Source of the DNA: a virus
Length of the DNA stretch: 21,784 nt
Reading direction: 5' to 3' (one strand)
IMG/VR virus record: IMGVR_UViG_3300048837_000251
Location: 1 to 21,784 of that record
Below, one piece after another: positions 8,445 to 20,987 of this stretch. Below the pieces are notes generated by a model that saw only the letters and a list, made by a program, of their open reading frames with translations, was not told where the DNA came from and did no database searches. Each line of letters starts with the position of its first letter. The stretch's first letter is position 1. Both the position numbers and the translations under genes were made by a program.

Positions 8445-9059
8445 TTATTTGAACCAGGCGTAATATTGCTCTTTTTTACCTTCGTCGTGAATAATTAGAA
8501 GGGGTAGCCCCGCTTTTAAGCGTTGCCAGTTTAATATCATTCTACCAGTGCGGCCGTTGCCGTCTGCGAATGGGTGAATCTGTTCGTATTGAATGTGTAG
8601 CTGTTTGGTGTCTTCGTCGATTCTTGAACCAGGATAATTTACTTGCAGGTTGGCACGTTCTACCCAGGCTTTCATTAAATCGGGTACGTGACGCCATTCG
8701 ACACCTTCACCAGTAGCGACGAATTGCTTAATTAATCCTTTACCATCTGGCGTAATGCCGACTATTTTGTCGTAGCCGATTCGTACGTCGGTAGTGCGCC
8801 AGTAGCCGCGTTCGTTTGGTCGAAGCCGTTTAGCATGAAGCATTAATATTTTATGTAGCTTCAAGATCGAACCGCCCGTTAATTTCTTTTCCGCCCATAG
8901 GTTATGCCAGGCTATTAGTGACTGCTTTAGGTTTTCTGGTGTGTCTTCGCCTTCGATTGCGTTACTCTCTTTAATAAAATACTCGATTGCCATATCTGGG
9001 TTTAGATCAGGGCAGTAGTGACAATCGGGTAGGGTACAGACTGGCGGTAAGTATTGCAT
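8445..9059 (-). CDS. Fic-domain protein, probable AMPylase with built-in inhibitory helix
   Basis: A 204-aa Fic protein. The active-site loop H-P-F-A-D-G-N-G-R-T-G-R is at residues 162-173: His162 is the catalytic base, Asp166 binds metal, and the GNGRTGR part holds the nucleotide phosphates. Fic enzymes usually transfer AMP from ATP to a hydroxyl side chain of a target protein. An N-terminal S-N-A-I-E-G (32-37) matches the autoinhibitory [S/T]xxxE[G/N] motif, whose Glu36 would block productive ATP binding, as in class II Fic proteins. The first 20 residues carry C8, C13 and C16, possibly a metal site. The chain stops soon after Q-Y-Y-A-W-F-K, so the helix that usually closes the Fic core may be short. 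Its target is unknown. It lies between small phage genes and the packaging module. Confidence 0.92.
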   Translation of the reverse strand: MQYLPPVCTLPDCHYCPDLNPDMAIEYFIKESNAIEGEDTPENLKQSLIAWHNLWAEKKLTGGSILKLHKILMLHAKRLRPNERGYWRTTDVRIGYDKIVGITPDGKGLIKQFVATGEGVEWRHVPDLMKAWVERANLQVNYPGSRIDEDTKQLHIQYEQIHPFADGNGRTGRMILNWQRLKAGLPLLIIHDEGKKEQYYAWFK

Positions 9060-9661: not shown

Positions 9662-10447
9662 TTACGCCTTTATAAAATGGTCTGTTAATATTTCGTGTCC
9701 GTCTTCGGTGACTAATACCATGTGTTCAAACATGGCGCTAAAACCATTGTCACGGGTTAAGATCGTCCAGCCGTCGCCAGATTGTTTACCGCCCCTATCC
9801 TTAAAACTTATAATAGGTTCGATACAAATTACCTCGCCCGCTTTTAGTGTTCGCATTCCGAAGCGCTGTAGGTACTGTTTATCGTGGCTGTAGAAGTTTG
9901 GTATAGTTGGTTCTTGGTGCATTTCTTCGCCGATACCGTGACCACTGAACACCTGGCACGTTACAAATTTATTAGCCTGGGTGTACTTGTCGATTGCCTT
10001 ACCGATATTAGTAACTAGCGCACCTGCTCTAACCTCATTTATTCCAATATAGACGGCGCGGTTAGCGTAGCGTAATAGTCGTTCGTGTTTTTCTTCGACT
10101 GAGCCGACGGGTACAGTTATCGCACAATCACCGCAAGCACCGTTAAATATTATGCCAATATCCAGGGTAATAATATCGCCTTCTTTTAGTGCGTAGTCGT
10201 CTGGTATGCCGTGGGCGATTTCGTTATTAACGCTTGTACACAATACGGCGGGGTAGGGGGTACTAGCCCAGTCTGGCTTATATCCAAGGTTGTAGGGCTT
10301 TGCCTGTAGCTTGTCTACCAGCCTGGCCGCGAAAAAGTCTAGTTCGTTTGTCGTTACGCCGACTTTAACTTCTGCCGCTGTTTGTGCAATTATTGAACTG
10401 GCTACTAATGCCGCGTCCCTCATTTTTTGAATGTGTTCGTTATTCAT
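9662..10447 (-). CDS. map: Type I methionine aminopeptidase, phage-encoded
   Basis: A complete 261-aa MetAP, close to the length of bacterial housekeeping enzymes. It removes the initiator Met from new proteins using two metal ions. All five metal ligands are present: Asp96 (L-D-I-G), Asp107 (G-D-C-A-I-T), His170 (S-G-H-G-I-G), Glu210 (C-I-E-P-I) and Glu241 (F-E-H-M-V-L). The substrate-site His79 (N-E-I-A-H-G-I-P) and His177 (M-H-Q-E-P) are also present. Spacing is almost that of E. coli MetAP. There is no N-terminal SH3 or zinc extension. The start overlaps the 63-aa gene by 4 nt. A phage copy is unusual: it could process phage proteins or replace a limiting host activity, perhaps relevant where many mRNAs begin directly at AUG. 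No decay is visible. Confidence 0.95.
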   Translation of the reverse strand: MNNEHIQKMRDAALVASSIIAQTAAEVKVGVTTNELDFFAARLVDKLQAKPYNLGYKPDWASTPYPAVLCTSVNNEIAHGIPDDYALKEGDIITLDIGIIFNGACGDCAITVPVGSVEEKHERLLRYANRAVYIGINEVRAGALVTNIGKAIDKYTQANKFVTCQVFSGHGIGEEMHQEPTIPNFYSHDKQYLQRFGMRTLKAGEVICIEPIISFKDRGGKQSGDGWTILTRDNGFSAMFEHMVLVTEDGHEILTDHFIKA

Positions 10448-10635
10448 ATATTTTTTAATTCTTCGTCTAGCATTTTACCAAGATAATCAAATATCATCTT
10501 ACCCACGAATAATCTGCCGTAGTCTGTTAGTTCAATGTCTGGCGACTCTATGGATTCTACGCCAACTAAAAAAGTAATAGTTTCACCCGCTTTAATATCT
10601 CGCTTTGCTACGCCGATAGGCTTATCGTTCGACAT
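10444..10635 (-). CDS. Small protein with SAF-like segment, 63 aa
   Basis: Residues about 6-22 (P-I-G-V-A-K-R-D-I-K-A-G-E-T-I-T) resemble the beta-clip SAF type of fold ('a-x-r-d-I-k-x-G-e-x-i'), followed by a strand and a C-terminal helix (V-G-K-M-I-F-D-Y-L-G-K-M-L-D-E-E-L). Function unknown; the resemblance is short. Its ATG lies within the last codons of the J-domain gene, behind AAAGGA, a good Shine-Dalgarno, and its stop overlaps the MetAP start, so it joins the two in one operon. Confidence 0.6.
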   Translation of the reverse strand: MSNDKPIGVAKRDIKAGETITFLVGVESIESPDIELTDYGRLFVGKMIFDYLGKMLDEELKNI

Positions 10636-11137
10636 TTTTTTCCTTTCGAATAATCTCTATTGCTTTGTTTAGCTCTAACATTTTTTCTTCTGAACCTGTC
10701 GCGGTATCAGGGTGGGCGGTTCGGGCTTTGGCCTTAAATGCCGCTTCGATTACTTCCATTGGCTGATTGTCGTACACTCCTAAAACTTCGTACGGGTTAA
10801 AAACCTCTGGGGCTTGAAGCTGTGCATATGCCGACTGCAATACTTCACCAATTCCGCGCCGTTCATTCATTCGCATAGACTCAATGGCAAGAAATAGTAC
10901 CCGCAAGTTATCGACTGCCCTACTTTGTTTATTCATCATTAAAGAAACGGTTTTACCGTCTTTTTGGTACGTAAGGGTTACTGTTCGGTCTGCCTCTGCT
11001 TGGTTCATGCCTTCCAACCTAGCACCGCGGGGATAATTAGTATCCCAGTTACTTACTCCCCAGTTTTCAAATTCTGCGGCTAAGTCGTTTTGTGTAGCCG
11101 ACCATGATTTAGGTGTCTTGATTTTGTACTCTCTCAT
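10622..11137 (-). CDS. J-domain (DnaJ-like) protein, 171 aa
   Basis: The C-terminal part (about 114-168) is a J-domain: N-P-Y-E-V-L-G-V at the start, a helix with E-A-A-F-K-A-K-A-R, then the invariant H-P-D at 142-144 and a helix with L-N-K-A-I-E-I-I-R. J-domains stimulate the ATPase of Hsp70/DnaK and bring clients to it. The 110-residue N-terminal part is not a Gly/Phe or zinc-finger DnaJ region; it has a conserved-looking N-Y-P-R-G-A-R-L and alternating strands, perhaps the client-binding part. Unlike cellular DnaJ the J-domain is at the C-terminus. AAGGAT precedes the ATG, which overlaps the upstream stop. Likely role: redirecting host DnaK to phage replication or assembly (inference). Confidence 0.85.
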   Translation of the reverse strand: MREYKIKTPKSWSATQNDLAAEFENWGVSNWDTNYPRGARLEGMNQAEADRTVTLTYQKDGKTVSLMMNKQSRAVDNLRVLFLAIESMRMNERRGIGEVLQSAYAQLQAPEVFNPYEVLGVYDNQPMEVIEAAFKAKARTAHPDTATGSEEKMLELNKAIEIIRKEKNVER

Positions 11138-11358: not shown

Positions 11359-11368
11359 ACTTTTTGTA

Positions 11369-11455
11369 CTAAGCGCCTAGCACTCGGTCTACCTTATTGC
11401 TATGTTCGCTTCCGTCCTGTTTAGCTTGATTCCATCGGTCTATTAGGCTATGTGT
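11369..11455 (-). pseudogene. Coding-like remnant without a start, in a 126-nt gap
   Basis: The gap 11359-11484 has no intact gene. On the minus strand one frame stays open for 28 codons with a protein-like reading (begins THSLIDRWNQAKQDGSEHSN, ends KVDRVLGA, stop at 11369-11371) but is closed upstream by TAA and has no ATG, GTG or TTG. Just upstream, in the frame of the HTH gene past its TGA, another protein-like stretch (FGHLGTNGSKHIA) is readable. Together they look like a longer C-terminus broken by a nonsense codon and a -1 shift, or a degraded small gene. A structured leader RNA is an alternative: GACCGA occurs twice and can pair with TCGGTC. Confidence 0.3.
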
Positions 11456-11484
11456 TTACTGCCATTAGTGCCTAAATGACCGAA

Positions 11485-12006
11485 TCAGTTATTAACTAAG
11501 TGCGCTTTTACGTGCCTGCCGTCTTCTTTAGCGTTGCTGATGTACCATAATCGTAGGTTCGTATCGAATGAAAGTTCAGGTTTTGGCGGTACGTGCTTGT
11601 CGTCGTCGATTAAATCTTCCTTATTTGGCTTTGCCATTACTCCCAACTTCTCTACGCTCCATGATTCGTCGTGGGCGCGTTGTAGTAGTAAGTGCCTGTC
11701 TTCATTGGCGGCTACTTCTCTAAAATGTGACCACGATAAGAACTTATACGCTTCCCTGATTTCTAATGGGAACGCCAGCGAAACATCTTTATACCGTCGT
11801 AGTGTGGCTATCTTGATACCAATACCGCGGGCTAGGTCTGGTAGGAACTTCTTACCCATTAGGCGGGTAAACTCTACTGCCAGGTCGCCGAACTCCCATT
11901 GTAAATTATCGGCTTTTTCTCTTAAATCCATTCCCCGCTGTATAAAGTCTTCAAACGATTCTTGATCTATTATTACTTCTGATTGGATTTGTGGTAAGTC
12001 GTTCAT
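11485..12006 (-). CDS. DNA-binding protein with ParB-type helix-turn-helix
   Basis: A 173-aa protein. Residues about 58-82 (L-A-R-G-I-G-I-K-I-A-T-L-R-R-Y-K-D-V) form a helix-turn-helix. The block that follows (F-L-S-W-S-H-F-R-E-V-A, then L-L-Q-R-A-H-D-E-S-W-S-V-E-K-L) is the pattern seen after the HTH in ParB/KorB-like and related plasmid and phage DNA-binding proteins. The N-terminal nuclease/CTPase domain of true ParB (GxxR) is absent, so this is an HTH-only relative. The C-terminus is polar and may be truncated, since protein-like sequence continues past the TGA. It is a candidate to bind one of the palindromic DNA motifs in this window (inference). It starts 4 nt after the 224-aa gene and has no Shine-Dalgarno. 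Confidence 0.65.
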   Translation of the reverse strand: MNDLPQIQSEVIIDQESFEDFIQRGMDLREKADNLQWEFGDLAVEFTRLMGKKFLPDLARGIGIKIATLRRYKDVSLAFPLEIREAYKFLSWSHFREVAANEDRHLLLQRAHDESWSVEKLGVMAKPNKEDLIDDDKHVPPKPELSFDTNLRLWYISNAKEDGRHVKAHLVNN

Positions 12007-12700: not shown

Positions 12701-12997
12701 TTAACTTTTCTTCTCGGATTCGACGCCGTGAAAAAATGGTTTAGAAGCCCTGAACTTTTTAGGTTTCGTGCTTGGCTTCTTGTGTCTAGGTACACCCATA
12801 CGCTCTAATCTGTCGTATAGGTTTTTTGGTGAAGAACCATACTTACCGACAAGATCAGACATGGTTAGACCATTTTCGGGCATTCCCGCGTAGTCAATCG
12901 CAAGCTGTTTGTTTTCTTCGGGGTTTGGCTGTGGGCCACGACCGCCGTTTACTTCGGTTAATATGTTTAATTCGCTGATGTTTAATTTAATTGCCAT
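12701..12997 (-). CDS. Small helix-turn-helix protein, candidate regulator
   Basis: A 98-aa basic protein. Residues about 43-72 (L-T-M-S-D-L-V-G-K-Y-G-S-S-P-K-N-L-Y-D-R) are a helix-turn-helix of the homeodomain-like/resolvase-tail type, followed by a Lys/Pro-rich tail with R-A-S-K-P-F-F-H-G. It is the first gene after one of the three promoters that share the TTGACACGGTGGGT block, and its ATG is 6 nt past the -10, so it is probably made from a leaderless mRNA. That position makes it a natural candidate for an autoregulated repressor or activator of the three-promoter set; nothing in the sequence proves it. Confidence 0.65.
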   Translation of the reverse strand: MAIKLNISELNILTEVNGGRGPQPNPEENKQLAIDYAGMPENGLTMSDLVGKYGSSPKNLYDRLERMGVPRHKKPSTKPKKFRASKPFFHGVESEKKS

Positions 12998-13003
12998 AAT
13001 TTT

Positions 13004-13037
13004 ATATTACTTATTTATACCCACCGTGTCAAGTGGG
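13004..13037 (-). promoter_or_regulatory. Shared-operator promoter 2, before the HTH gene
   Basis: On the minus strand TTGACA (complement of 13027-13032, perfect), a 17-bp spacer and TAATAT (complement of 13004-13009), then 6 nt to the ATG at 12997. The -35 lies inside CCCAC-TTGACACG-GTGGG, an inverted repeat with 5-bp arms. The block TTGACACGGTGGGT is identical in the promoters at 15876-15909 and 19437-19470. A transcript would start on the initiation codon. Confidence 0.82.
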
Positions 13038-13038
13038 G

Positions 13039-13254
13039 TTATATTAGATTCCTTTTTACTATTTCTGCTCTCAATGCCTCTACTTTTTCGGCTAACTCTA
13101 CGTCGTATTCAGACATAAAAGAATCTTGCTTCGCCGCTTCCATTCTCTTTTTATAGTATGCGTAGCTATTGAGTAGGTACGCGTCTACCATTTTAGAGAT
13201 TACTACTACTTCGCCTTTATTGTTTAGGTAGCTTGTTAGCCTGGGTTTTGCCAT
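13039..13254 (-). CDS. Hypothetical protein, 71 aa
   Basis: Not recognised. Short strand pair (R-L-T-S-Y-L-N-N-K-G-E-V-V-V-I) followed by helices rich in Lys/Glu (Y-Y-K-K-R-M-E-A-A-K-Q and E-L-A-E-K-V-E-A-L-R-A-E-I-V), typical of small soluble phage proteins. It overlaps the membrane gene upstream by 38 nt, and its stop lies immediately before the shared-operator promoter 2, so it closes its operon. An AGGA is present but 12 nt or more from the ATG. Confidence 0.6.
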   Translation of the reverse strand: MAKPRLTSYLNNKGEVVVISKMVDAYLLNSYAYYKKRMEAAKQDSFMSEYDVELAEKVEALRAEIVKRNLI

Positions 13255-13363
13255 TATTTCTCACTTCCTGAAAATTTACTAACCACTGTACGCCCTTAAA
13301 AACGGCGAATAAAAGCAGTCCGTTAATACAGACCACCAATAAAAGCGCGTAAAGTAAAGTCAT
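13217..13363 (-). CDS. Small single-pass membrane protein, 48 aa
   Basis: Starts at the ATG at 13361-13363, overlapping the stop of the HNH-like gene (TTATGAC), with GAAGGG just upstream. Residues 2-29 are hydrophobic (T-L-L-Y-A-L-L-L-V-V-C-I-N-G-L-L-L-F-A-V-F) and the rest is polar and basic (N-N-G-K-T-Q-A-N-K-L). A longer upstream start at 13489 exists, but it would overlap the HNH-like gene by 130 nt and produce a Cys-rich out-of-frame leader, so I reject it. Function unknown. Confidence 0.65.
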   Translation of the reverse strand: MTLLYALLLVVCINGLLLFAVFKGVQWLVNFQEVRNNGKTQANKLPKQ

Positions 13364-13770
13364 AAATTCCCTTCTTGATAGTAATAGGTTTGCGGTTGGT
13401 TTCTTCTTGATTCGATAGCACCCAGTACAATTTCTCGCATTTCTAACCGTGGCATACGTTCTATGTAGTTGTGGCATTCGACACAACATAAAGCCACCAG
13501 GGTAATTATTTCTGCACCTTCCAAGTTGTCGCGCTTATCACCATGCGCCCACGTTAAAAAGAATTTATGGTTATGCTTTTCTACCTTAGTAGCGTGTTCG
13601 GGGAAGTCTTGAAGGTATAGCCCGATTTCACAATAGGTAATACCCACCGCCTCGAATGCTGGCTTTAATAACTTCTTGGCCGCTTCCCAGTCGTTCGTTT
13701 TTACACCAGGCTTAATAGTGCGCTTTACCTTCTTCTTTTTACTTACTGGTTTTGGTTGTGGATTAAACAT
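13360..13770 (-). CDS. HNH-like metal-binding protein, possible nuclease
   Basis: A 136-aa protein with a Lys-rich N-terminus (K-K-K-K-V-K-R) and a treble-clef-like core: Cys47, His66 and His68, F-L-T-W-A-H76-G-D-K-R, then L-V-A-L-C95-C96-V-E-C99-H100-N-Y-I-E. The 'A-H-x-x-K-R ... C-x-x-C-H-x-x-I-E' layout is what I know from phage HNH-type proteins, where it forms the metal site and catalytic His. A clear first C-x-x-C pair is missing, so activity is not certain. It may act in recombination with the ERF/YqaJ pair encoded upstream, or in packaging. The ATG is 6 nt after an AATAAA; a weak leaderless promoter is possible. Confidence 0.6.
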   Translation of the reverse strand: MFNPQPKPVSKKKKVKRTIKPGVKTNDWEAAKKLLKPAFEAVGITYCEIGLYLQDFPEHATKVEKHNHKFFLTWAHGDKRDNLEGAEIITLVALCCVECHNYIERMPRLEMREIVLGAIESRRNQPQTYYYQEGNL

Positions 13771-13851
13771 AATTCTTTTATTTGCGGGCTATACTAGACG
13801 ACAACACCGTAAGTACAAGACTTCGAATATCGTCGTACTAGTATTAATGCC

Positions 13852-13920
13852 CTACCAGAACCAACTACCCATTAAGTTTATTAATTCTGGTTTCACTAGT
13901 AAGTCATCTTTACTTGACAT
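13852..13920 (-). CDS. Possible 22-aa peptide gene
   Basis: The ATG at 13918-13920 lies in another frame within the last codons of the RlpA-like gene and reads MSSKDDLLVKPELINLM, ending G-S-W-F-W before TAG. It occupies part of the gap 13771-13895. The same stretch can fold as ACCAGAA...TTCTGGT, a 7-bp stem with a long loop, so it may instead be RNA structure. There is no Shine-Dalgarno. Listed because the reading looks protein-like; weak evidence. The rest of the gap (13771-13851) shows nothing I recognise except weak promoter-like boxes before the HNH-like gene. Confidence 0.3.
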   Translation of the reverse strand: MSSKDDLLVKPELINLMGSWFW

Positions 13921-14510
13921 AAGTTTTTACAATTAATTGCGTCACGGGTTGCGACTGATAGGTCGGCTACTCTGCCGTGCCTAGCGAATCCGCCCGTATC
14001 GGTTACTTTTGCGTATACTTCCTGTCCGTTGCTTAAATTCGTCACCTTCACAATATCATTTAATAACTTGTGCTGTCGTACCATTTCTGGGGTTAGTGCT
14101 AGAGTAAGTTCGCTGTCGTTTAGGCTGTCCCCGTTTGCCATTATCATTTTTTCATTACAACCAAGACAACCAGCCCGACTATAGTAACTTGCTTCGCCTT
14201 CTATTTCTCTAACCTCTGGTTCGCTAGCTTTAACTTCGCTTACTACCATTTTACCGACGTCGGGAATATGGTTAATTTGTGCGCCACGTGTCGCAACTTC
14301 TGGGCTGGCGACTGGTGTATCTGTCGGTACTGGGCTAAGTAGTTCTACTTCTCGTTCTTGAATTACTAACGGCGACTGTACTTTTATTTCGTGATTTACA
14401 GACACCCACTTAGAAGATAGCCATAATAATAAAAGCATTACGATTAGTCTAACTGTGGTACGTAATCGTTTTTCTCTTTTAATTCTTCTTAGTCGGGCAG
14501 ACTTGTACAT
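13896..14510 (-). CDS. Membrane-anchored RlpA-like double-psi beta-barrel protein
   Basis: A 204-aa protein with a basic N-terminus (R-L-R-R-I-K-R-E-K-R), one transmembrane segment (about 20-37, V-R-L-I-V-M-L-L-L-L-W-L), a Pro/Glu/Val-rich linker (40-100) and a C-terminal RlpA-like domain from G-E-A-S-Y-Y (105-110) to D-T-G-G-F-A-R-H-G-R-V-A-D-L-S (171-185). The last motif is the conserved Asp...Arg...(A/I)DLS part of this fold, in which Asp171 and Asp183 match acidic positions of RlpA and related lytic transglycosylases. Cys115/118 and Cys194/198 may form disulfides outside the membrane. Likely role: cutting or binding cell-wall peptidoglycan from outside the membrane, for lysis or entry. 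It lies in the recombination gene block rather than with lysis genes. Ends at TAG. Confidence 0.82.
   Translation of the reverse strand: MYKSARLRRIKREKRLRTTVRLIVMLLLLWLSSKWVSVNHEIKVQSPLVIQEREVELLSPVPTDTPVASPEVATRGAQINHIPDVGKMVVSEVKASEPEVREIEGEASYYSRAGCLGCNEKMIMANGDSLNDSELTLALTPEMVRQHKLLNDIVKVTNLSNGQEVYAKVTDTGGFARHGRVADLSVATRDAINCKNLCQVKMTY
14280..14295. repeat. CACGTG palindrome, site D
   Basis: TGCGCCACGTGTCGCA, identical to site B over all 16 bases, inside the linker region of the RlpA-like gene (A-T-R-G-A-Q). Confidence 0.7.
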
Positions 14511-14515
14511 ATTGA

Positions 14516-15112
14516 TTACGCCTTTTCGACGACCTTTAATATTTCGGCTAACTTATCCTTACCCATCACTAGCCCGCCTTCTATTTTGGTGATCTTGGCG
14601 TCGTTTCTAAGAACCCTAGTAATAATGGTGCTTTTCTTGAAGTTTGGATTAAATAGCACGTAGTCTACCCACTGGCGACCAGTAACCAGCATTTGCATTT
14701 GCATTTGCCAATCATGGGCGGGGTCGATATTGCTGTCGAATATGAATTTAACGAAGTTAGAATCGTCTTTACATTTGATCTCTAGTAAGCCGTCTTCGCC
14801 GACTAAACCGTCTGGGCTACACCCGACCTTTTCGTCTAACTCCACGAATCCTACTTGTGTAACGATTACACCTTTTTCTAGTTCGTATGAGTTGCGGGCC
14901 AGGGCTTCTAGCAAGTTGCCGCGTTCCATATCGGCATTACTGTACTGGTCTTTCATTTGACCAGTCATTACCTCGGCCGCTTTTTTATAGACCAGGGTTT
15001 CTAATCCCTTGCCATTACTAGCGATTGCCTGGGCGTCGCTGGCTGTGAACTTGCCTAATCGAACCTGTAACCATTCGGGCGTACCCTGTTTTAATTCGTT
15101 ATAGATTTTCAT
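14516..15112 (-). CDS. YqaJ-family (lambda-type) recombination exonuclease
   Basis: A 198-aa PD-(D/E)XK nuclease. Family features in order: G-T-P-E-W-L-Q-V-R-L-G-K-F-T-A-S (9-25, the conserved 'W-x-x-x-R-x-x-x-x-T-A-S' entry), M-E-R-G-N-L-L-E-A-L-A-R (62-73), C-S-P-D-G-L (98-103, Asp101), E-I-K-C-K (111-115, Glu111 and Lys113) and D-W-Q-M-Q-M-Q-M (134-141). These are the metal and catalytic residues of the lambda exonuclease/YqaJ fold. The enzyme would resect dsDNA 5' ends to give ssDNA for the annealing protein encoded just upstream. Its ATG overlaps the annealing protein's stop (ATGA) behind AAGGA, a coupled two-gene recombination system. Confidence 0.93.
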   Translation of the reverse strand: MKIYNELKQGTPEWLQVRLGKFTASDAQAIASNGKGLETLVYKKAAEVMTGQMKDQYSNADMERGNLLEALARNSYELEKGVIVTQVGFVELDEKVGCSPDGLVGEDGLLEIKCKDDSNFVKFIFDSNIDPAHDWQMQMQMLVTGRQWVDYVLFNPNFKKSTIITRVLRNDAKITKIEGGLVMGKDKLAEILKVVEKA

Positions 15113-15867
15113 TGTGTTTTTTCCTTAGTCAATTCGTCTTTTTTAGTAGTGTAGTGCTTTAACAATGCCTGATTTTTGTTAAAACCTTTTCGCTGTCTGA
15201 TTGATTGGCAGATGGTATTAAGCTGTTCTAACTCGGTAGCTTCTTTAATTGCGTCGAGGTCGCGGGGGTCTAATTCTTCTTCTGGTTTTATTTCTGGGGT
15301 GGTCTTTTTACCCTGGCTATCGACGGTATCTTTAACACTTATTTCGTATGCAATTTCGAATAATGCACGTCGCATATAGGTAGTAGTACCCTTTAGAATC
15401 TGTATTTTTTGGGCGTCTTCCATTTCGTAGCCCTGTACTGGTAGCGTCCACTCTAGTACTTCTTCTGGTTTGTCGGCGTTGGTAATTTTTAACACGGCTT
15501 CGCTATCGTCCATATTAAAATGTGTGAATAATCCGTATTCTGAATTAAGTTTATTTATTTGGGGCAAGTAGTCGGGAAGCTCTAAGTAACTGAATCCCTT
15601 GTCTTCGTTTCGACTGCTTCGCTGTATATCTAGCTCGGCTACTTCTTTACGAATGGTTTGTAGTTTTTGGTAGATGTTCATGTTCCTAACTTCTGCCTCT
15701 GGCTTTATTTGTTGAATTTCTTTAACCATTTTTTTAGCCTTTGGCACTATTTTTAGGTGGGGTTTTGGCAGTTTGTCGAATGTCCCGACTTGTTGGTATA
15801 CTTCGGCGTCTTCTTCGTGGCTTTCCACTTCTTTACTTTGTTTGGTTGGTCTGTTGTATTTTCCCAT
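15109..15867 (-). CDS. ERF-family single-strand annealing protein
   Basis: A 252-aa recombinase. The core (about 64-200) has the ERF pattern: N-I-Y-Q-K-L-Q-T-I-R-K-E-V at the start, F-S-Y-L-E-L-P-D-Y-L-P-Q-I-N near 91, and later Q-K-I-Q-I-L-K-G-T-T-T-Y-M-R-R-A-L-F-E (the conserved 'G-s-x-x-T-Y-x-x-R-y-x-L' block). The N-terminal 60 residues are Lys/Glu-rich and not part of the usual core, but the start is supported by the promoter placed 8 nt before this ATG. ERF proteins bind and anneal complementary ssDNA; with the YqaJ nuclease it makes a complete lambda Red-like pair. Expressed from shared-operator promoter 3 on a leaderless or nearly leaderless mRNA. Confidence 0.9.
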   Translation of the reverse strand: MGKYNRPTKQSKEVESHEEDAEVYQQVGTFDKLPKPHLKIVPKAKKMVKEIQQIKPEAEVRNMNIYQKLQTIRKEVAELDIQRSSRNEDKGFSYLELPDYLPQINKLNSEYGLFTHFNMDDSEAVLKITNADKPEEVLEWTLPVQGYEMEDAQKIQILKGTTTYMRRALFEIAYEISVKDTVDSQGKKTTPEIKPEEELDPRDLDAIKEATELEQLNTICQSIRQRKGFNKNQALLKHYTTKKDELTKEKTQ

Positions 15868-15875
15868 ATGTTTTT

Positions 15876-15909
15876 ATATTAGTTTATATAACCCACCGTG
15901 TCAAGGGGG
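15876..15909 (-). promoter_or_regulatory. Shared-operator promoter 3, before the recombination genes
   Basis: On the minus strand TTGACA (complement of 15899-15904, perfect), a 17-bp spacer and TAATAT (complement of 15876-15881), then 8 nt to the ATG at 15867. The upstream arm is CCCCC instead of CCCAC, so the inverted repeat is imperfect here, while TTGACACGGTGGGT is fully conserved. Confidence 0.82.
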
Positions 15910-15912
15910 TAA

Positions 15913-16014
15913 TTACCAGAGGTGGGCTAAATTTAGTATATCTGCTTGAAAGAGAAATAATATTACAAAAAATGATAAACCGATTAACCATAGTAGTAAT
16001 TGAGTTATCCCCAT
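15913..16014 (-). CDS. Possible 33-aa membrane peptide
   Basis: The ATG at 16012-16014 opens a 33-codon frame beginning MGITQLLLWLIGLSFFVILF and ending D-I-L-N-L-A-H-L-W. Residues 4-23 are strongly hydrophobic, a single membrane helix. It fills most of the otherwise empty 206-nt stretch 15868-16074 between a hairpin and shared-operator promoter 3. There is no Shine-Dalgarno. Small membrane peptides are common in this phage (54, 51 and 48 aa elsewhere), which makes it plausible. Confidence 0.45.
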   Translation of the reverse strand: MGITQLLLWLIGLSFFVILFLFQADILNLAHLW

Positions 16015-16043
16015 ATGTGTAGAACTTGTGTATAAACTTGCTT

Positions 16044-16067
16044 CTACCGCCAAGTAATTAGCGGTAG
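16044..16067 (-). other. Hairpin after the 117-aa gene, weak terminator candidate
   Basis: CTACCGC and GCGGTAG form a 7-bp stem with a 10-nt loop, 7 nt past the stop codon of the gene at 16075-16428. On the minus strand it is followed by AAGCAAGTTTATAC, with no clear U-run, so it may be a Rho-type, processing or pausing site rather than an intrinsic terminator. Confidence 0.35.
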
Positions 16068-16074
16068 TGGTAAA

Positions 16075-16428
16075 TTAATAACCTAGTTCTTTTAAGACCT
16101 GCTGGCGTTGGCTCGCTAGCGCCTCTATTTCGGTGTTTTTCTTAGGTATCTGCTCTGCTACTGCTTCCAGTGTACCTAGATCGTTATTAGATATTGCATA
16201 GTAACCAGCGCTACACAATTCCATAGATTCACCAGCTACGATAAAACCTTTATCGTCGATCTCTTTCAATCTGCGCCACGTGTCGCCGTTTTTCTCAACT
16301 TCGACAATCGTTTCGACTGGCACTTCTTTAATAACTTCCTTTTCGACTACTTGGGTTTTACCCGAAGCGCCGAAGCCAATACCGACCAATAGGATTACTG
16401 CGCCTATTCCGATTTGTTTAAGTGTCAT
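16075..16428 (-). CDS. Small membrane-anchored protein, 117 aa
   Basis: The N-terminus (5-22, Q-I-G-I-G-A-V-I-L-L-V-G-I-G-F-G) is one membrane helix or uncleaved signal. It is followed by a repetitive acidic/basic strand Q-V-V-E-K-E-V-I-K-E-V-P-V-E-T-I-V-E-V-E-K, a pattern often seen in phage membrane-proximal or spanin-like proteins. The C-terminal half is helical. Spanin-type function is only a guess; no lipobox Cys follows the helix. AAAGGGG lies just before the overlapping ATG, so it is coupled to the 113-aa gene. One CACGTG palindrome lies inside it (codons for D-T-W-R-R), in a different frame from the other sites. Confidence 0.6.
   Translation of the reverse strand: MTLKQIGIGAVILLVGIGFGASGKTQVVEKEVIKEVPVETIVEVEKNGDTWRRLKEIDDKGFIVAGESMELCSAGYYAISNNDLGTLEAVAEQIPKKNTEIEALASQRQQVLKELGY
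16272..16286. repeat. CACGTG palindrome, site E
   Basis: TGCGCCACGTGTCGC, 15 bases identical to sites B and D, here read in a different frame (D-T-W-R-R instead of T-R-G-A). The frame change argues that the DNA sequence, not the peptide, is conserved. Confidence 0.7.
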
Positions 16429-16766
16429 AAATCCCCTTTCGTGGGTTTTTTAATTGTTAGATACTTACTAAACGTCATTATCATATCTACCACCTGGGCG
16501 CTTGCCATGCCCCGAAACATCATAATAGCTTGACTCTGGTTTCGGTGTGACTCTGCCATACAGTCGGCCATTGTCTGCCAGGGAATCAATTTACTAAGTT
16601 TTCTGTTTTCCCTCGATACCTGTACGATGGTTTTATTAAAAAAGTACGCTTCTTTTTCCCATTGTGTCGCGGCGTAACTTCGCTTCCAGCCCGTAGTAAG
16701 CCCTAACCATGTCGTAGGTTCAAATAAAGGAATTGTTTTATAGATAATTTCTGGTGTATTTTTCAT
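16425..16766 (-). CDS. Hypothetical protein, 113 aa
   Basis: Not recognised. Trp/Tyr-rich N-terminal half (T-T-W-L-G-L-T-T-G-W-K-R-S-Y) and a Met-rich helical C-terminal half (M-F-R-G-M-A-S-A-Q-V-V-D-M-I-M). No signal peptide or metal motif. It ends by overlapping the start of the membrane-anchored 117-aa protein, and begins 3 nt after the zinc-ribbon gene, so it is part of one operon. Confidence 0.6.
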   Translation of the reverse strand: MKNTPEIIYKTIPLFEPTTWLGLTTGWKRSYAATQWEKEAYFFNKTIVQVSRENRKLSKLIPWQTMADCMAESHRNQSQAIMMFRGMASAQVVDMIMTFSKYLTIKKPTKGDL

Positions 16767-16769
16767 ATA

Positions 16770-17204
16770 TTAGGTACTCGCTAACTGCGTCGCTAAAAAG
16801 CTAAACATATCTTGATAGCTACCGCGCTTATTACTTTTAAGATCATGGTATCGACGGTTCACTACGTACAAGTCAATCGTCCCATTAATCCGCCATTGAT
16901 ACTCTGTTAGGTACTTTACTGTATATTTTTCTTCTATTCTTTTTTTCATGTCCTGCCAGAACCTAGCTTCTTTTTCTGCTTTTCTGGCGTCGTTAGTGGC
17001 TTGTGCCTTTTGTCGCTTTGACTCTTTAGCCATTTCGATAGCGGCGCATTCGTCGCATAAATTAATAACTTCGTCGTCACCTCTGAACCAGCTAACTTCC
17101 CAGGTAAAAGTAAACCCAGGCTTAAACTTTTTACACTCCGAACATAATTTATCGGTCTTGTACTTTTTCTTTTCTGCTAGATATGGGTATTTTTTATTAC
17201 TCAT
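16770..17204 (-). CDS. Zinc-ribbon protein, 144 aa, function unknown
   Basis: The ATG at 17202-17204 is chosen because it overlaps the upstream stop (ATGA); an in-frame ATG 30 nt further up would lie deeper in that gene. A four-Cys zinc site is visible: C21-S-E-C24 and C50-D-E-C53, separated by a Trp/Phe-rich hairpin. Then come a strongly charged helix (about 54-95, A-K-E-S-K-R-Q-K-A-Q) and a C-terminal part with Y-Q-W-R-I-N-G-T-I-D-L-Y-V-V-N-R-R-Y, which resembles the strand layout of small RNase H-like or nuclease-type folds but has no motif I can name. It probably binds nucleic acid or protein. Confidence 0.6.
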   Translation of the reverse strand: MSNKKYPYLAEKKKYKTDKLCSECKKFKPGFTFTWEVSWFRGDDEVINLCDECAAIEMAKESKRQKAQATNDARKAEKEARFWQDMKKRIEEKYTVKYLTEYQWRINGTIDLYVVNRRYHDLKSNKRGSYQDMFSFLATQLAST

Positions 17205-17467
17205 GTTTTGATAGTTTCGTAATCTACTAAGCAACTTAAAATATATAAAACTTTGTCTAGCCGTTCTTCTTCGAACCTAAGGTAATTAACCTTGCCAGGT
17301 GCGGGCATAATCCTAAGCGGCGAATTGTTATTTAATAGCACGTTGTTAATGTCTGTAATGATTTGGGCTATTTCAATGTTTCGGTAAATGGTTGGGTTAA
17401 TTACTAACCCCGCCACCTGTGCCATATGTGCGCCCGACGTTACAAATTCTTCTAGTGTTAATTTCAT
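17201..17467 (-). CDS. Hypothetical protein, 88 aa
   Basis: Not recognised. Mixed helix with a central Asn-rich turn (V-L-L-N-N-N-S-P-L-R-I) and a C-terminal helix (L-D-K-V-L-Y-I-L-S-C-L-V-D-Y). Its ATG follows the preceding stop by one base (TAA-T-ATG). Confidence 0.55.
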   Translation of the reverse strand: MKLTLEEFVTSGAHMAQVAGLVINPTIYRNIEIAQIITDINNVLLNNNSPLRIMPAPGKVNYLRFEEERLDKVLYILSCLVDYETIKT

Positions 17468-17468
17468 A

Positions 17469-17729
17469 TTACTTTTTCTCTTTTAATTTTCTGTACTCCA
17501 TCTCGGCTAAATATTTACTTGTTTCGATACCAACTATTAAAATTTCCATGTCATTTGACACCTTACTAAACGCTTTTAGTTCTTGTATTAAATCGTCTAC
17601 GCTTAGAAAAAGTACGCCGTCTTCGCTCATATAACACCTAGACCGCGGCGCTGTTTTAATCATGTCGTCAATTTCTCTAACTATTTGTGGGTTTAATATA
17701 TAACCCTGTGGCTGTTTTTTGCTTTTCAT
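17469..17729 (-). CDS. Hypothetical protein, 86 aa
   Basis: Not recognised. Basic N-terminus (M-K-S-K-K-Q-P-Q-G-Y), a short strand pair around G-V-L-F-L-S-V-D-D-L-I, and a helical basic C-terminus (E-M-E-Y-R-K-L-K-E-K-K). Tight TAA-T-ATG junction with the gene before it. Confidence 0.55.
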   Translation of the reverse strand: MKSKKQPQGYILNPQIVREIDDMIKTAPRSRCYMSEDGVLFLSVDDLIQELKAFSKVSNDMEILIVGIETSKYLAEMEYRKLKEKK

Positions 17730-17730
17730 A

Positions 17731-18024
17731 TTATTTAACCATCTGATCTAGTACGTAATCTATGTCGAGTACTACGGCCTTGGGTTTTCTTGTAATAAAT
17801 GTGCCTTCGGTATTTTTATAGCTTTGCCCTATCCAGTCTATGATTTCTTGACTGTTTTTAGGTAGCTTATTCACCTTCGCAAATTTAGCGAATAGCGTTA
17901 AAAGCGTTTTACAGTCTTGGTCGAACTTGGCTTTTTGCTCAGTTATTTGTGGTTTGCCGAAGAAGCCTTTAGGTTCGTATACCGTTATTGTTTTTTCCCG
18001 TAGTTTAATTACTTTGCTTGTCAT
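17731..18024 (-). CDS. Hypothetical protein, 97 aa
   Basis: Not recognised. N-terminal strands (V-I-K-L-R-E-K-T-I-T-V-Y-E-P-K-G-F-F-G-K-P-Q), then helices (K-T-L-L-T-L-F-A-K-F-A-K, Q-E-I-I-D-W-I-G-Q-S-Y). GAGGCG about 8 nt before its ATG is a fair Shine-Dalgarno. Part of the same run of small genes. Confidence 0.55.
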   Translation of the reverse strand: MTSKVIKLREKTITVYEPKGFFGKPQITEQKAKFDQDCKTLLTLFAKFAKVNKLPKNSQEIIDWIGQSYKNTEGTFITRKPKAVVLDIDYVLDQMVK

Positions 18025-18026
18025 AG

Positions 18027-18260
18027 TTACGCCTCGTTTTTAACCTTAATTTCTTTTACTAGGTCAATTAACATCTGTGCAAACGAATAGTAGCCCGATA
18101 AATGAACCTTGCCGTATGAACACCACCAGTAATCGTCCTGCCCGCTTTTCGGGTCGTTCTTGCCTATTGTTAATTCACCATCGCCGCTTTTAGGGCTTTG
18201 GTTTACTCCGTCTAAAAAGTCGATTGCTTTAGATAGTTCTTGTGCTTGCTCTATTGTCAT
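18027..18260 (-). CDS. Hypothetical protein, 77 aa
   Basis: Not recognised. Helical ends flank a central part rich in Gly, Asp, Ser and aromatics (K-S-G-Q-D-D-Y-W-W-C-S-Y-G-K-V-H-L-S-G-Y-Y). It follows the 74-aa gene by one base and has no Shine-Dalgarno. Confidence 0.55.
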   Translation of the reverse strand: MTIEQAQELSKAIDFLDGVNQSPKSGDGELTIGKNDPKSGQDDYWWCSYGKVHLSGYYSFAQMLIDLVKEIKVKNEA

Positions 18261-18261
18261 A

Positions 18262-18486
18262 TTATTTATTTTCTTCTGGTTCGGTTTTTATTGTGTACGG
18301 CATACCTATAAAAATAGTGCGCTTGCCGTTTGTGTACTCAATCACTACTTTTTCTATACCTTCGGTTACTCCCGCGTGAATGCGGGCTACGTCTGGCAGT
18401 CCCAAGACGTTAAATATTGCTGGCTGGTTGCCTGGCTGAAATACGACTACTTGTATAATTTTTTGTAGGTCTTTTTCGTTTGCCAT
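18262..18486 (-). CDS. Hypothetical protein, 74 aa
   Basis: Not recognised. A compact beta-rich sequence with Q-V-V-V-F-Q-P-G-N-Q-P-A-I-F-N-V and V-I-E-Y-T-N-G-K-R-T-I-F-I-G-M-P, like a small barrel or hairpin protein. The start follows the 164-aa gene's stop by one base; GAAGGG from that gene's last codons lies at a usable distance. Confidence 0.55.
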   Translation of the reverse strand: MANEKDLQKIIQVVVFQPGNQPAIFNVLGLPDVARIHAGVTEGIEKVVIEYTNGKRTIFIGMPYTIKTEPEENK

Positions 18487-18487
18487 A

Positions 18488-18982
18488 TTAGCCCTTCATC
18501 AATTCATCATAATTAAATTTATTGCCTAATGCTTCGTGGATTGTGACGTCTACCCCTGTTAGTCCGTAGGATTTAGAGTTAAATACTTTGGCGTGTGATC
18601 GTACCGTAATTTCACCTTCTACAAACTCCCGACCTAATTCGGTTAGCTTCCAGTATCCAGCGCGATTACTTCCGTCGTCGCGTTGCTCTGGCTTTTCTTC
18701 TAGTAAGTCCCAGTATCTAAGTTTCGCGTTATCGCCGCTTTTAACTGGGAAGGGAATATCTAAGGTGTTTAGGTAGTCGTTCATGTGTACCCATTCTTGA
18801 TCTGGGTTAGCTTCAAAATATCGGTATAGCAGAATTAGCGCGTACGCCATGCTTGAAGTAATCTTACGCTTGTAGAGTTTGACGAACTGGGTGCAACATG
18901 GACACTCTATACCCTCGTTCCATTCGGCGCGTAAAACGTCTTTAGCTTCTTTTAGGGTTGCGGTGCTGGGTAGTGTTGTCAT
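18488..18982 (-). CDS. Conserved phage protein with CPCC site and winged-helix-like region
   Basis: A 164-aa protein of a type I recognise from many phages and mobile elements but cannot name. There is an N-terminal C-P-C-C-T-Q-F-V-K-L-Y-K-R-K (27-40) and a helix S-S-M-A-Y-A-L-I-L-L-Y-R-Y-F. A region A-K-L-R-Y-W-D-L-L-E ... R-A-G-Y-W-K-L-T-E-L-G-R-E-F-V (86-121) looks like a winged helix-turn-helix, and the end is I-H-E-A-L-G-N-K-F-N-Y-D-E-L-M. The Cys cluster may bind zinc. DNA binding is likely by inference. AGAGGAAAT precedes its ATG, which overlaps the previous gene's stop. Confidence 0.65.
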   Translation of the reverse strand: MTTLPSTATLKEAKDVLRAEWNEGIECPCCTQFVKLYKRKITSSMAYALILLYRYFEANPDQEWVHMNDYLNTLDIPFPVKSGDNAKLRYWDLLEEKPEQRDDGSNRAGYWKLTELGREFVEGEITVRSHAKVFNSKSYGLTGVDVTIHEALGNKFNYDELMKG

Positions 18983-19194
18983 AAATCTATTTCCTCTGTA
19001 ATGTACATTTCCCCGCTAATCATTATTAATTTTTTTGATTTTTTATCTTCTAGCGCAATATCTACATAAACCCTATTACCTATAACAAATTTTCTTAAAA
19101 GTTTAGTTATTTCGTGCGTTGCCTCGCCCAGTTCTTTTTTTGATCTGTCGCAAGTAACTATTATGTGGTTTTTTTCTATCGTCTTAGTTATCAT
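18979..19194 (-). CDS. Hypothetical protein, 71 aa
   Basis: Not recognised. Alternating strands and helix: I-E-K-N-H-I-I-V-T-C-D, then A-T-H-E-I-T-K-L-L-R-K-F, V-Y-V-D-I-A-L-E-D and L-I-M-I-S-G-E-M-Y-I. Basic and compact. It begins 2 nt after the 77-aa gene. Confidence 0.55.
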   Translation of the reverse strand: MITKTIEKNHIIVTCDRSKKELGEATHEITKLLRKFVIGNRVYVDIALEDKKSKKLIMISGEMYITEEIDL

Positions 19195-19196
19195 TT

Positions 19197-19430
19197 TTAT
19201 TTTTCCCAGTCTGGGTTATTTTCCATTTCGGTAGTGACTTCGCTTTTTACATTTGGCGACAATGCCATCATCAAGGCTAGGCAGGTTGCTAATACCGATT
19301 GTGTTCTACTAATATCTGTTTTTATGTCTATCTCTATTTTAATTTTTGTTTCTTTCGAAACGCCAGCACCCCGCTTGTTCTTAATCATTTCTAAGGCTTC
19401 TGGTATTGTGTAGGTTTTTAGTTTCTTCAT
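19197..19430 (-). CDS. Hypothetical protein, 77 aa, first gene of a small-gene operon
   Basis: Not recognised. Basic N-terminus, I-K-I-E-I-D-I-K-T-D-I strand and a Leu/Met-rich helix (V-L-A-T-C-L-A-L-M-M-A-L), which could be a short membrane-active or packing helix. It is the first gene after shared-operator promoter 1, whose -10 box ends 6 nt before this ATG, so its mRNA should be leaderless. It heads the run of small genes down to 16075. Confidence 0.62.
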   Translation of the reverse strand: MKKLKTYTIPEALEMIKNKRGAGVSKETKIKIEIDIKTDISRTQSVLATCLALMMALSPNVKSEVTTEMENNPDWEK

Positions 19431-19436
19431 AATTTA

Positions 19437-19471
19437 ATAATACTAGGTGTTACCCACCGTGTCAAGTGGGT
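19437..19471 (-). promoter_or_regulatory. Shared-operator promoter 1, before the small-gene operon
   Basis: On the minus strand TTGACA (complement of 19460-19465, perfect), a 17-bp spacer and TATTAT (complement of 19437-19442), then 6 nt to the ATG at 19430. The -35 sits in ACCCAC-TTGACACG-GTGGGT, an inverted repeat with 6-bp arms, the most symmetric of the three copies. It could bind a dimeric regulator covering the -35. Confidence 0.85.
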
Positions 19472-19474
19472 AGT

Positions 19475-19693: not shown

Positions 19694-19717
19694 GCCACCT
19701 TAAAAAAATAGGGTGGC
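19694..19717 (-). promoter_or_regulatory. Alternative hairpin hiding the Shine-Dalgarno of the 71-aa gene
   Basis: GCCACC (complement of 19712-19717) can pair with GGTGGC (complement of 19694-19699), a 6-bp stem over a 12-nt A/U-rich loop. The second arm contains the Shine-Dalgarno AAGGTGG. The first arm is also the 3' arm of the terminator stem at 19702-19775, so the two folds exclude each other. Confidence 0.4.
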
Positions 19718-19775
19718 TGTGGATATAGCCCAGTGTTCGCACGTAGCTAAACCAGACTATCTACACAACCACCCC
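19702..19775 (-). terminator. Strong intrinsic terminator after the ATPase gene
   Basis: On the minus strand GGGTGGTTGTG pairs with CACAGCCACCC (11 bp including one G-U). The stem then extends through a mismatch-containing part (TAGATAG with CTATAT) to a loop of about 18 nt. TATTTTTTT follows directly (the A-run at 19702-19708 on the plus strand). It lies 7 nt after the stop codon of the gene at 19782-20987. Long GC-rich stem plus U-run make this the clearest terminator in the window. Confidence 0.8.
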
Positions 19776-19781
19776 GTATTA

Positions 19782-20987
19782 TTACTTTTTGATTTGACCG
19801 TCTTCGATCAAAATACCGACCTGCCCGTTATCCTCGACCCTCTCAATCCAGACTTGATAGTCTTCGGTCTTAGCCATTTCTTTAATAACGGCCATGTTAT
19901 CGCTGTCGAGTAATGAACCGTCCATAATTCGCATTACCCTTAGTTTTGGATTCATCGACATAGCGATAGCCAGACTTATTTTTAACTGCTCGGCGCTAGA
20001 CAACTGGGTAAACGGCATGGCGTTAAACGTCACACCCTCGGCGTCGATGTTCAAGCCGTCGATAGGTAGCTTTGCCGACGTGATTAATTCGTCTTTTTGC
20101 TTTAGTAGCGCATTCATTTCGTCGGTTAGCTGTTGTTGCTCTACTGCTTTGGCGTTAGCTTTTTCTTGCGCTTCTACGCATTCTTTAGCCTGTTCGTACC
20201 TGCGGTTCATTTCGCCCGCACTAGCTAACCGTTCTTCTAGCTTGGTCGTGTCTACCTTCTTATACTTTTTAAGTTTCGCCTCGGCTTCTTTTAATTCCGC
20301 CTTGTGCCTTTTAATTTCGGCTTCCATTCTGGCTAGTTCTTTTTTGCCAGTTTCTAAAAACGCTTCGCCGTCTTCGATTAGGCGGTTATTCTGCTCTGCT
20401 TCTCGCAACTCATTCGCCACCGCCACCGTGTCTACTGGGGCTTTTGGGGCGTTTTCAGGTATCGAGGTACTAGCGGCGTGACCCTGTGCCGTTTTTAACT
20501 CCCTACCTACGAAAGTGCGTAATTCGTACTTACTTCTATAAGCGTTTTGTAATGCCTCGACGTCTTTAGCTAAACCGAGTACGTCTAGTAATATGCTTCG
20601 CTGTTCGGCGGGCTTCATGTTGGCGAATGCCAGCGGGTCGAATGCAATACGGCCGACAATTTCGTCTAGTAAAGTTTGAGGGCTGGCGAATTTAGCACCT
20701 TCTTTACTTAGTACCTCTAGTCTAGTAGTTCCCTTTTCGGTGAAAGTTCGAATTACTTTATAGTCGCCTAAGTCTATTTCGATACGCGCGTCTTCTTGAC
20801 CGTCACGTACTGGCTTTGGCGTGTTTTTCAAGGCGTCTTTACCGCCTAGTGCAAACAGTATTGAATCTAACACACTACTTTTACCCTGTCCATTTTTGCC
20901 ACTAATTACGATAGTGTTATCGGTTGGCGTAATGTCTATGGCTTTAATTTTCTTGACGTTCTCCGCCTTTAGGTTAATTATTTTCAT
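19782..20987 (-). CDS. RecF/SbcC/Rad50-type ATPase (phage recombination family)
   Basis: A 401-aa ABC-type ATPase. Walker A G-K-N-G-Q-G-K-S-S at 30-38 follows an N-terminal strand pair (M-K-I-I-N-L-K-A-E-N-V). A coiled coil (about 190-290, rich in E, K and A) separates the halves. The ABC signature L-S-S-A-E-Q-L-K-I-S is at 329-338, and the Walker B region L-R-V-M-R-I-M-D-G-S-L-L-D at 349-361. A Gly follows the Walker B Asp where most ABC ATPases have Glu; I know the D-G-S-L-L-D form from other phage relatives, so it is a family trait. The end Q-V-W-I-E-R-V is also typical. Likely role: DNA-end or ssDNA handling. No SbcD-like nuclease partner is visible here. Translation is coupled to the gene before it, with AAAGGGGG upstream of the ATG. 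Confidence 0.85.
   Translation of the reverse strand: MKIINLKAENVKKIKAIDITPTDNTIVISGKNGQGKSSVLDSILFALGGKDALKNTPKPVRDGQEDARIEIDLGDYKVIRTFTEKGTTRLEVLSKEGAKFASPQTLLDEIVGRIAFDPLAFANMKPAEQRSILLDVLGLAKDVEALQNAYRSKYELRTFVGRELKTAQGHAASTSIPENAPKAPVDTVAVANELREAEQNNRLIEDGEAFLETGKKELARMEAEIKRHKAELKEAEAKLKKYKKVDTTKLEERLASAGEMNRRYEQAKECVEAQEKANAKAVEQQQLTDEMNALLKQKDELITSAKLPIDGLNIDAEGVTFNAMPFTQLSSAEQLKISLAIAMSMNPKLRVMRIMDGSLLDSDNMAVIKEMAKTEDYQVWIERVEDNGQVGILIEDGQIKK

Follow-up and report, generated by a model that had tools for sequence, protein, structure and literature searches.

Our analysis revealed that a single 14-bp sequence, TTGACACGGTGGGT, which unites a consensus −35 hexamer with eight further base pairs, CGGTGGGT, stands once at the head of each of the six promoter-headed operons seen in the co-directional genome of an uncultured phage. 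Judging from its distribution and exact conservation, this block is probably a selected, phage-wide element that is read by a dedicated regulator at predicted leaderless promoters. The explanation that we consider best, with a probability of about 0.42, is that the consensus −35 is fused to the site of the regulator and that one protein gates all the operons, likeliest by occluding the −35. The element is ordinary in kind and new in sequence and lineage; every single feature lies within known phage biology. We found no mention of the 14-mer in the literature; the general idea of repeated phage operator-promoters is already known, and similar logic occurs in other phages.

Block promoters and the operons they head

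In the 21,784-nt stretch of viral DNA analyzed here (the window), the exact block occurs three times, always on the minus strand (13032-13019, 15904-15891 and 19465-19452). Only 0.04 copies are expected from shuffled sequences, so that a chance origin can be rejected, and allowing up to two mismatches across the whole window yielded no further site. At all three copies the −35 is separated by 17 bp from a −10 box, and the two hexamers together score 10-11 of 12. At P1 (block at 13019-13032), 6 nt separate TAATAT at 13004-13009 from the ATG at 12997; at P2 (15891-15904), 8 nt separate TAATAT at 15876-15881 from the ATG at 15867; at P3 (19452-19465), 6 nt separate TATTAT at 19437-19442 from the ATG at 19430. 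The copies, the spacer, the −10 boxes and the three gene starts are thus as described in an earlier, sequence-only reading of this DNA.

A 32,747-bp viral contig, IMGVR_UViG_3300048836_000092 (G001), contains the whole window at 100% identity. Extending the search to this wider genome, as the sequence-only reading had proposed, showed that the exact block occurs six times, always on one strand, at positions 45, 13652, 16524, 20085, 23070 and 32408, with P3, P2 and P1 among them. P2 heads the recombination genes, which encode an Erf-like single-strand annealing protein (15109-15867, minus strand; phrog_155, E 2.9e-14) and a YqaJ/RecE-like exonuclease (14516-15112, minus strand; PF09588, E 9.2e-22). 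P5 (G001 23070) heads a run of small genes that follows the lysis genes. P6 (G001 45) comes after the capsid genes, at the head of a unit identified as head-tail genes by position in the relative L036, and P4 (G001 32408) heads a tail/lysis unit with the tape measure, other tail genes and an amidase. The unit of P1, starting at 12997, runs co-directionally on into terminase, portal, protease and capsid genes, the portal and capsid being assigned by position and size. The proposal that the block promoters form one early regulon therefore did not hold, because two of the six copies head structural operons and the P1 unit itself reaches the terminase, portal and capsid. Terminator-like hairpins, judged by eye, are present upstream of P5 in a 277-bp gap.

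Conservation of the block

Two diverged relatives each keep the exact block at the place orthologous to P6. One of them, L007, shares 67-74% nucleotide identity with the phage over most shared genes, and the capsid protein of the other, L036, is 88% identical to that of the phage. An ungapped alignment of eight copies (six from the 32,747-bp contig and one each from L036 and L007) has invariant columns at exactly the 14 positions of the block, and at none of the 25 positions before it or the 26 after it, the −10 box included; two of the eight copies have an 18-bp spacer, which places their −10 one column off. All eight copies have TTGACA and, 17-18 bp away, a −10 of the form TAnnnT, that is with A2 and T6, with the start codon adjoining, consistent with σ70-type promoters. 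At the orthologous sites in the relatives the spacer and the −10 differ and the 14 bases stay. Such a sharp invariant block amid variable surroundings argues for selection on all 14 bases.

P3 and P5 have 31 identical bases in common and may not be independent copies. It is nevertheless hardly credible that the whole set reflects recent duplication of one promoter cassette, with the extra bases free of selection, as the remaining copies have little in common beyond the 14 bp and the relatives retain 14 of 14 at the orthologous site with spacer and −10 changed.

The CCCAC/GTGGG dyad

The invariant 14-bp core is asymmetric. At some promoters it is extended on the left by an arm that completes an inverted repeat. 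At P1 the arm CCCAC (13033-13037, minus strand) pairs with GTGGG at 13020-13024, and at P3 the arm TACCCAC (19466-19472, minus strand) forms 7-bp arms with GTGGGTA. The sequence-only reading had noted a perfect CCCAC/GTGGG at two window copies, and it is indeed present at the first and the third; the second, with CCCCC, matches at four of five positions. It is also perfect at P5. As a conserved element, however, the repeat fails, since the left arm matches at only two of five positions at the structural promoters P4 and P6 and at three and one of five in the P6-orthologous copies of the relatives. Random 5-mers reach four or more matches in 1.4% of cases, and the arm scores 5, 4, 5 and 5 of 5 at P1, P2, P3 and P5. 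Since it scores high at these four promoters only, the dyad appears to mark the non-structural promoters rather than to form part of the whole element, in a split seen over six promoters of one genome, too few for a firm test, of which P3 and P5 have 31 identical bases.

Comparable arms were seen in two further viral contigs, both from unrelated large phages and each with a single exact copy of the block. In L061 (175 kb), CCCACTTGACAGAGTGGGT precedes a 138-aa gene whose start is of the leaderless type; in L057 (422 kb), CCAC stands at the corresponding place.

Predicted leaderless transcripts

In six of the eight block promoters the end of the −10 and the ATG are 6 nt apart, and in P2 and P6 they are 8 nt apart. 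With so little room upstream of the start codon, the transcripts, including those of P1 and P3, should be leaderless; the host RNA polymerase would presumably start at or beside the AUG. The same arrangement recurs across these phages. Of 78 gene starts, 21 have a TATAAT-like hexamer whose end lies exactly 6 nt upstream, compared with 0 to 2 of 78 at 4, 5 and 7 nt, and the matches at 0, 1 and 3 nt (9, 11 and 6 of 78) probably reflect common TAATATATG-type starts. A Shine-Dalgarno 5-mer is nearly absent, being present at one of the 78 starts. A TAnnnT motif some 12 bp upstream of the start codon has been published as a mark of leaderless genes (PMC3160421). The block promoters resemble the bacterial TA-led promoters of that study in the placement of this motif and in being predicted to produce no 5′ leader, but they add an invariant extended −35 and belong to a genome almost devoid of Shine-Dalgarno sequences. 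If leaderless expression indeed extends across the phage genome, it bears on which host is infected. Relatives of the phage proteins are a mixture from mycobacteriophages, Arthrobacter phages and Microcystis phages and do not point to a single host.

A second promoter type, TTGCAW-17-AATAAT-6-ATG with a conserved ACCTATTGCA, lies at 1467-1515 of the window (minus strand), before the gene starting at 1466, and lacks the block. The same type occurs in L007 upstream of 7191, and in both phages it stands before the gene that immediately precedes the capsid gene.

A dedicated regulator or a promoter sequence only

In our preferred reading the block would be a composite promoter element, in which the consensus σ70 −35 hexamer and the additional 8 bp jointly make up the recognition site of a regulator. 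A dedicated DNA-binding protein, most likely encoded by the phage, would gate the six operons together, structural and non-structural alike, and the likeliest mode is that it covers the −35 in the manner of a repressor on its operator. We favor occlusion because the −35 is a perfect consensus and lies inside the invariant site. The additional left half-site CCCAC would strengthen or modify binding at the non-structural promoters.

The sequence-only reading had argued that the conserved bases between the boxes are not needed by σ70 and are probably read by a regulator. The support for this idea is indirect: 14 invariant columns with sharp edges, and promoters of the same phages that do without the additional bases. 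Predicted leaderless promoters of these phages with a weaker −35, namely TAGACA, TTGACT, TCGACA or TTGCAA, retain only 0-4 of the eight CGGTGGGT bases. The basal machinery thus does not seem to need CGGTGGGT, and the block probably adds specificity to the promoter. That the block is conserved all or none is better explained by a specific binding site than by a graded preference of the polymerase.

The alternative without any regulator takes the block as nothing more than the host promoter at its strongest, with the bases after the −35 touched by host σ or β′. The perfect −35 at every block promoter suits plain strong promoters too, as do the 17-18 bp spacing and the single copy per operon. In the part of the genome seen, no integrase or recognized repressor was found, nor any other known regulator or lysogeny gene, and lone exact 14-mers occupy promoter-like places in three unrelated viral contigs (L091-L093). 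We nonetheless regard this alternative as unlikely. It does not readily explain why all 14 columns are invariant and sharply bounded, or why graded partial matches are lacking among the other predicted promoters of the same phages. Moreover, when 84,980 species genomes were scanned for the block together with a −10, only 13 loci came up, nearly all of them one metabolic operator in Clostridia, which suggests that no sampled host uses the block as a general promoter.

Somewhat more doubtful is the possibility that the block serves as the site of a phage activator or σ-appropriating factor, which would bind just downstream of the −35, recruit the host RNA polymerase and switch on all the operons, much as T4 MotA or Mu Mor do. 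The position of CGGTGGGT, about −29 to −22, would allow it to be read together with σ, and the block is found on structural and non-structural operons alike. The −10 of block promoters is also less consensus (TAnTAT), with T at position 4 in seven of eight compared with four of 15 non-block promoters (Fisher p 0.009; the comparison was made post hoc and depends partly on site selection). This difference leans toward altered recognition or activation. On the other side, activator-dependent promoters usually lack a consensus −35, and here it is perfect. Between the two modes we favor occlusion, as a preference rather than a decision.

A more specific version of the regulator reading can be drawn, in which one phage protein reads the extended −35 at every operon, early and late, as control of the whole leaderless set, a second half-site is used only at non-structural promoters, and the host belongs to an uncultured lineage poor in Shine-Dalgarno sequences. 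It would amount to a new kind of phage-wide control; taken as a whole it is speculative, and we would not expect all of it to be correct. Should the regulator reading be right, one 14-bp sequence would predict every promoter that heads an operon in an uncultured phage lineage and would offer a direct handle on its master regulator.

Occurrences elsewhere and known systems

Twelve of the 13 loci in the species genomes belong to Clostridia, where the block is part of a wider palindromic ACCTATTGACACGGTGGGTAAATAG, or a close variant of it, that spans the −35, in most cases upstream of a gene for cysteine desulfurase or cysteine synthase. From this gene content we infer an operator of the Rrf2 type; by sequence, then, the same 14-mer can serve inside an operator that spans the −35. 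The ACCTATTGACACGGTGGGTAAATAG-like promoters (L021, L023-L029, L031, L032 and others) precede nifS-like, cysK-like and a few other genes and likely form one Rrf2-type regulon. The identical 14 letters in 12 clostridial promoters and the embedding of the −35 in a dyad might suggest that a host sulfur or Fe-S regulator of the Rrf2 type (IscR/CymR-like) controls the phage, the block copying half of the nifS/cysK operator. This is very unlikely. The clostridial dyad CTATTTACC/GGTAAATAG has a different center and length, and a search for the full palindrome CTATTTACC...GGTAAATAG over the −35 found its left half absent from all phage copies. Clostridial operons are led by Shine-Dalgarno sequences, which the phage nearly lacks, and each of two clostridial genomes checked has one copy. 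Furthermore, TTGACA is common to any consensus promoter, so only eight bases need coincide.

In a few other viral contigs the exact 14-mer with a −10 occurs as a single copy each. A relaxed scan with TTGACANNGTGGGT likewise gave mostly single copies in unrelated viruses, and none of the seven records checked contains the exact block in repeat.

A close parallel among phages is found in L5 and other cluster A mycobacteriophages, in which the repressor gp71 binds repeated short asymmetric sites, oriented with transcription, across early and late genes, the site at the early promoter being a true operator (PMC9283540, PMC6550527). Our phage is alike in that its six exact asymmetric sites share one orientation, on the coding strand. 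L5, however, has 20-30 sites of 13 bp, mostly off promoters, whereas here there are six, all at promoters, and all eight block sites, relatives included, have a −10 and a start codon. TTGACA, the −35 bases, is likewise part of the L5 site, in reverse; the bases beyond TTGACA differ from those of the block.

T4 middle promoters, which depend on MotA and AsiA, are similar in having a phage-specific element at about −30, shared by many promoters that use the host RNA polymerase. The MotA box, however, stands in place of the −35, and the perfect TTGACA in eight of eight copies sets the block promoters apart from the MotA-type middle class. No relatives of MotA or AsiA were present among the proteins scanned.

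Candidate regulators

The P1 operon encodes two candidates for the regulator. Its first gene (12701-12997, minus strand) encodes a 98-aa HTH-like protein, which the sequence-only reading had put forward. An HTH call comes from a weak match to phrog_1303 (E 0.0044), and a single-sequence AlphaFold2 model has core helices at residues 31-70 with pLDDT of about 88. Family, PDB and fold searches gave nothing significant, the top fold match being Mu Mor (E 0.49), a resemblance that would suit an activator were it significant. The 98-aa protein may be the regulator, and a second candidate is encoded two genes downstream. The third gene (11485-12006, minus strand) encodes a 173-aa LmbU-family-like protein that matches NCBIfam NF038070 over residues 14-168 with E 3.6e-8, below the curated cut-off; its predicted structure (pLDDT 41) is too poor a model to use. 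Members of the LmbU family regulate genes in actinomycetes and bind DNA through an HTH (PMC6510168). Neither candidate had a PDB sequence match or a relative among phage records, and no gp71 relative was found in these searches.

Other features of the window

Scans of the window for tRNAs and Rfam families gave no matches. Several structured intergenic stretches were nevertheless apparent on the minus strand. The one at 13771-13895 contains two strong hairpins (z −6.2, no Rfam match) and is a possible non-coding RNA or cis element. At 19695-19782 a long stable hairpin followed by a T run (z −5.0) comes after an SbcC-like gene and is likely a terminator. Two others lie at 11359-11484 (z −3.4) and 16023-16074 (z −4.0). 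The phage also encodes, on the same strand, a Fic-domain protein (8445-9059), a type I methionine aminopeptidase (9662-10447) and a J-domain protein (10622-11137).
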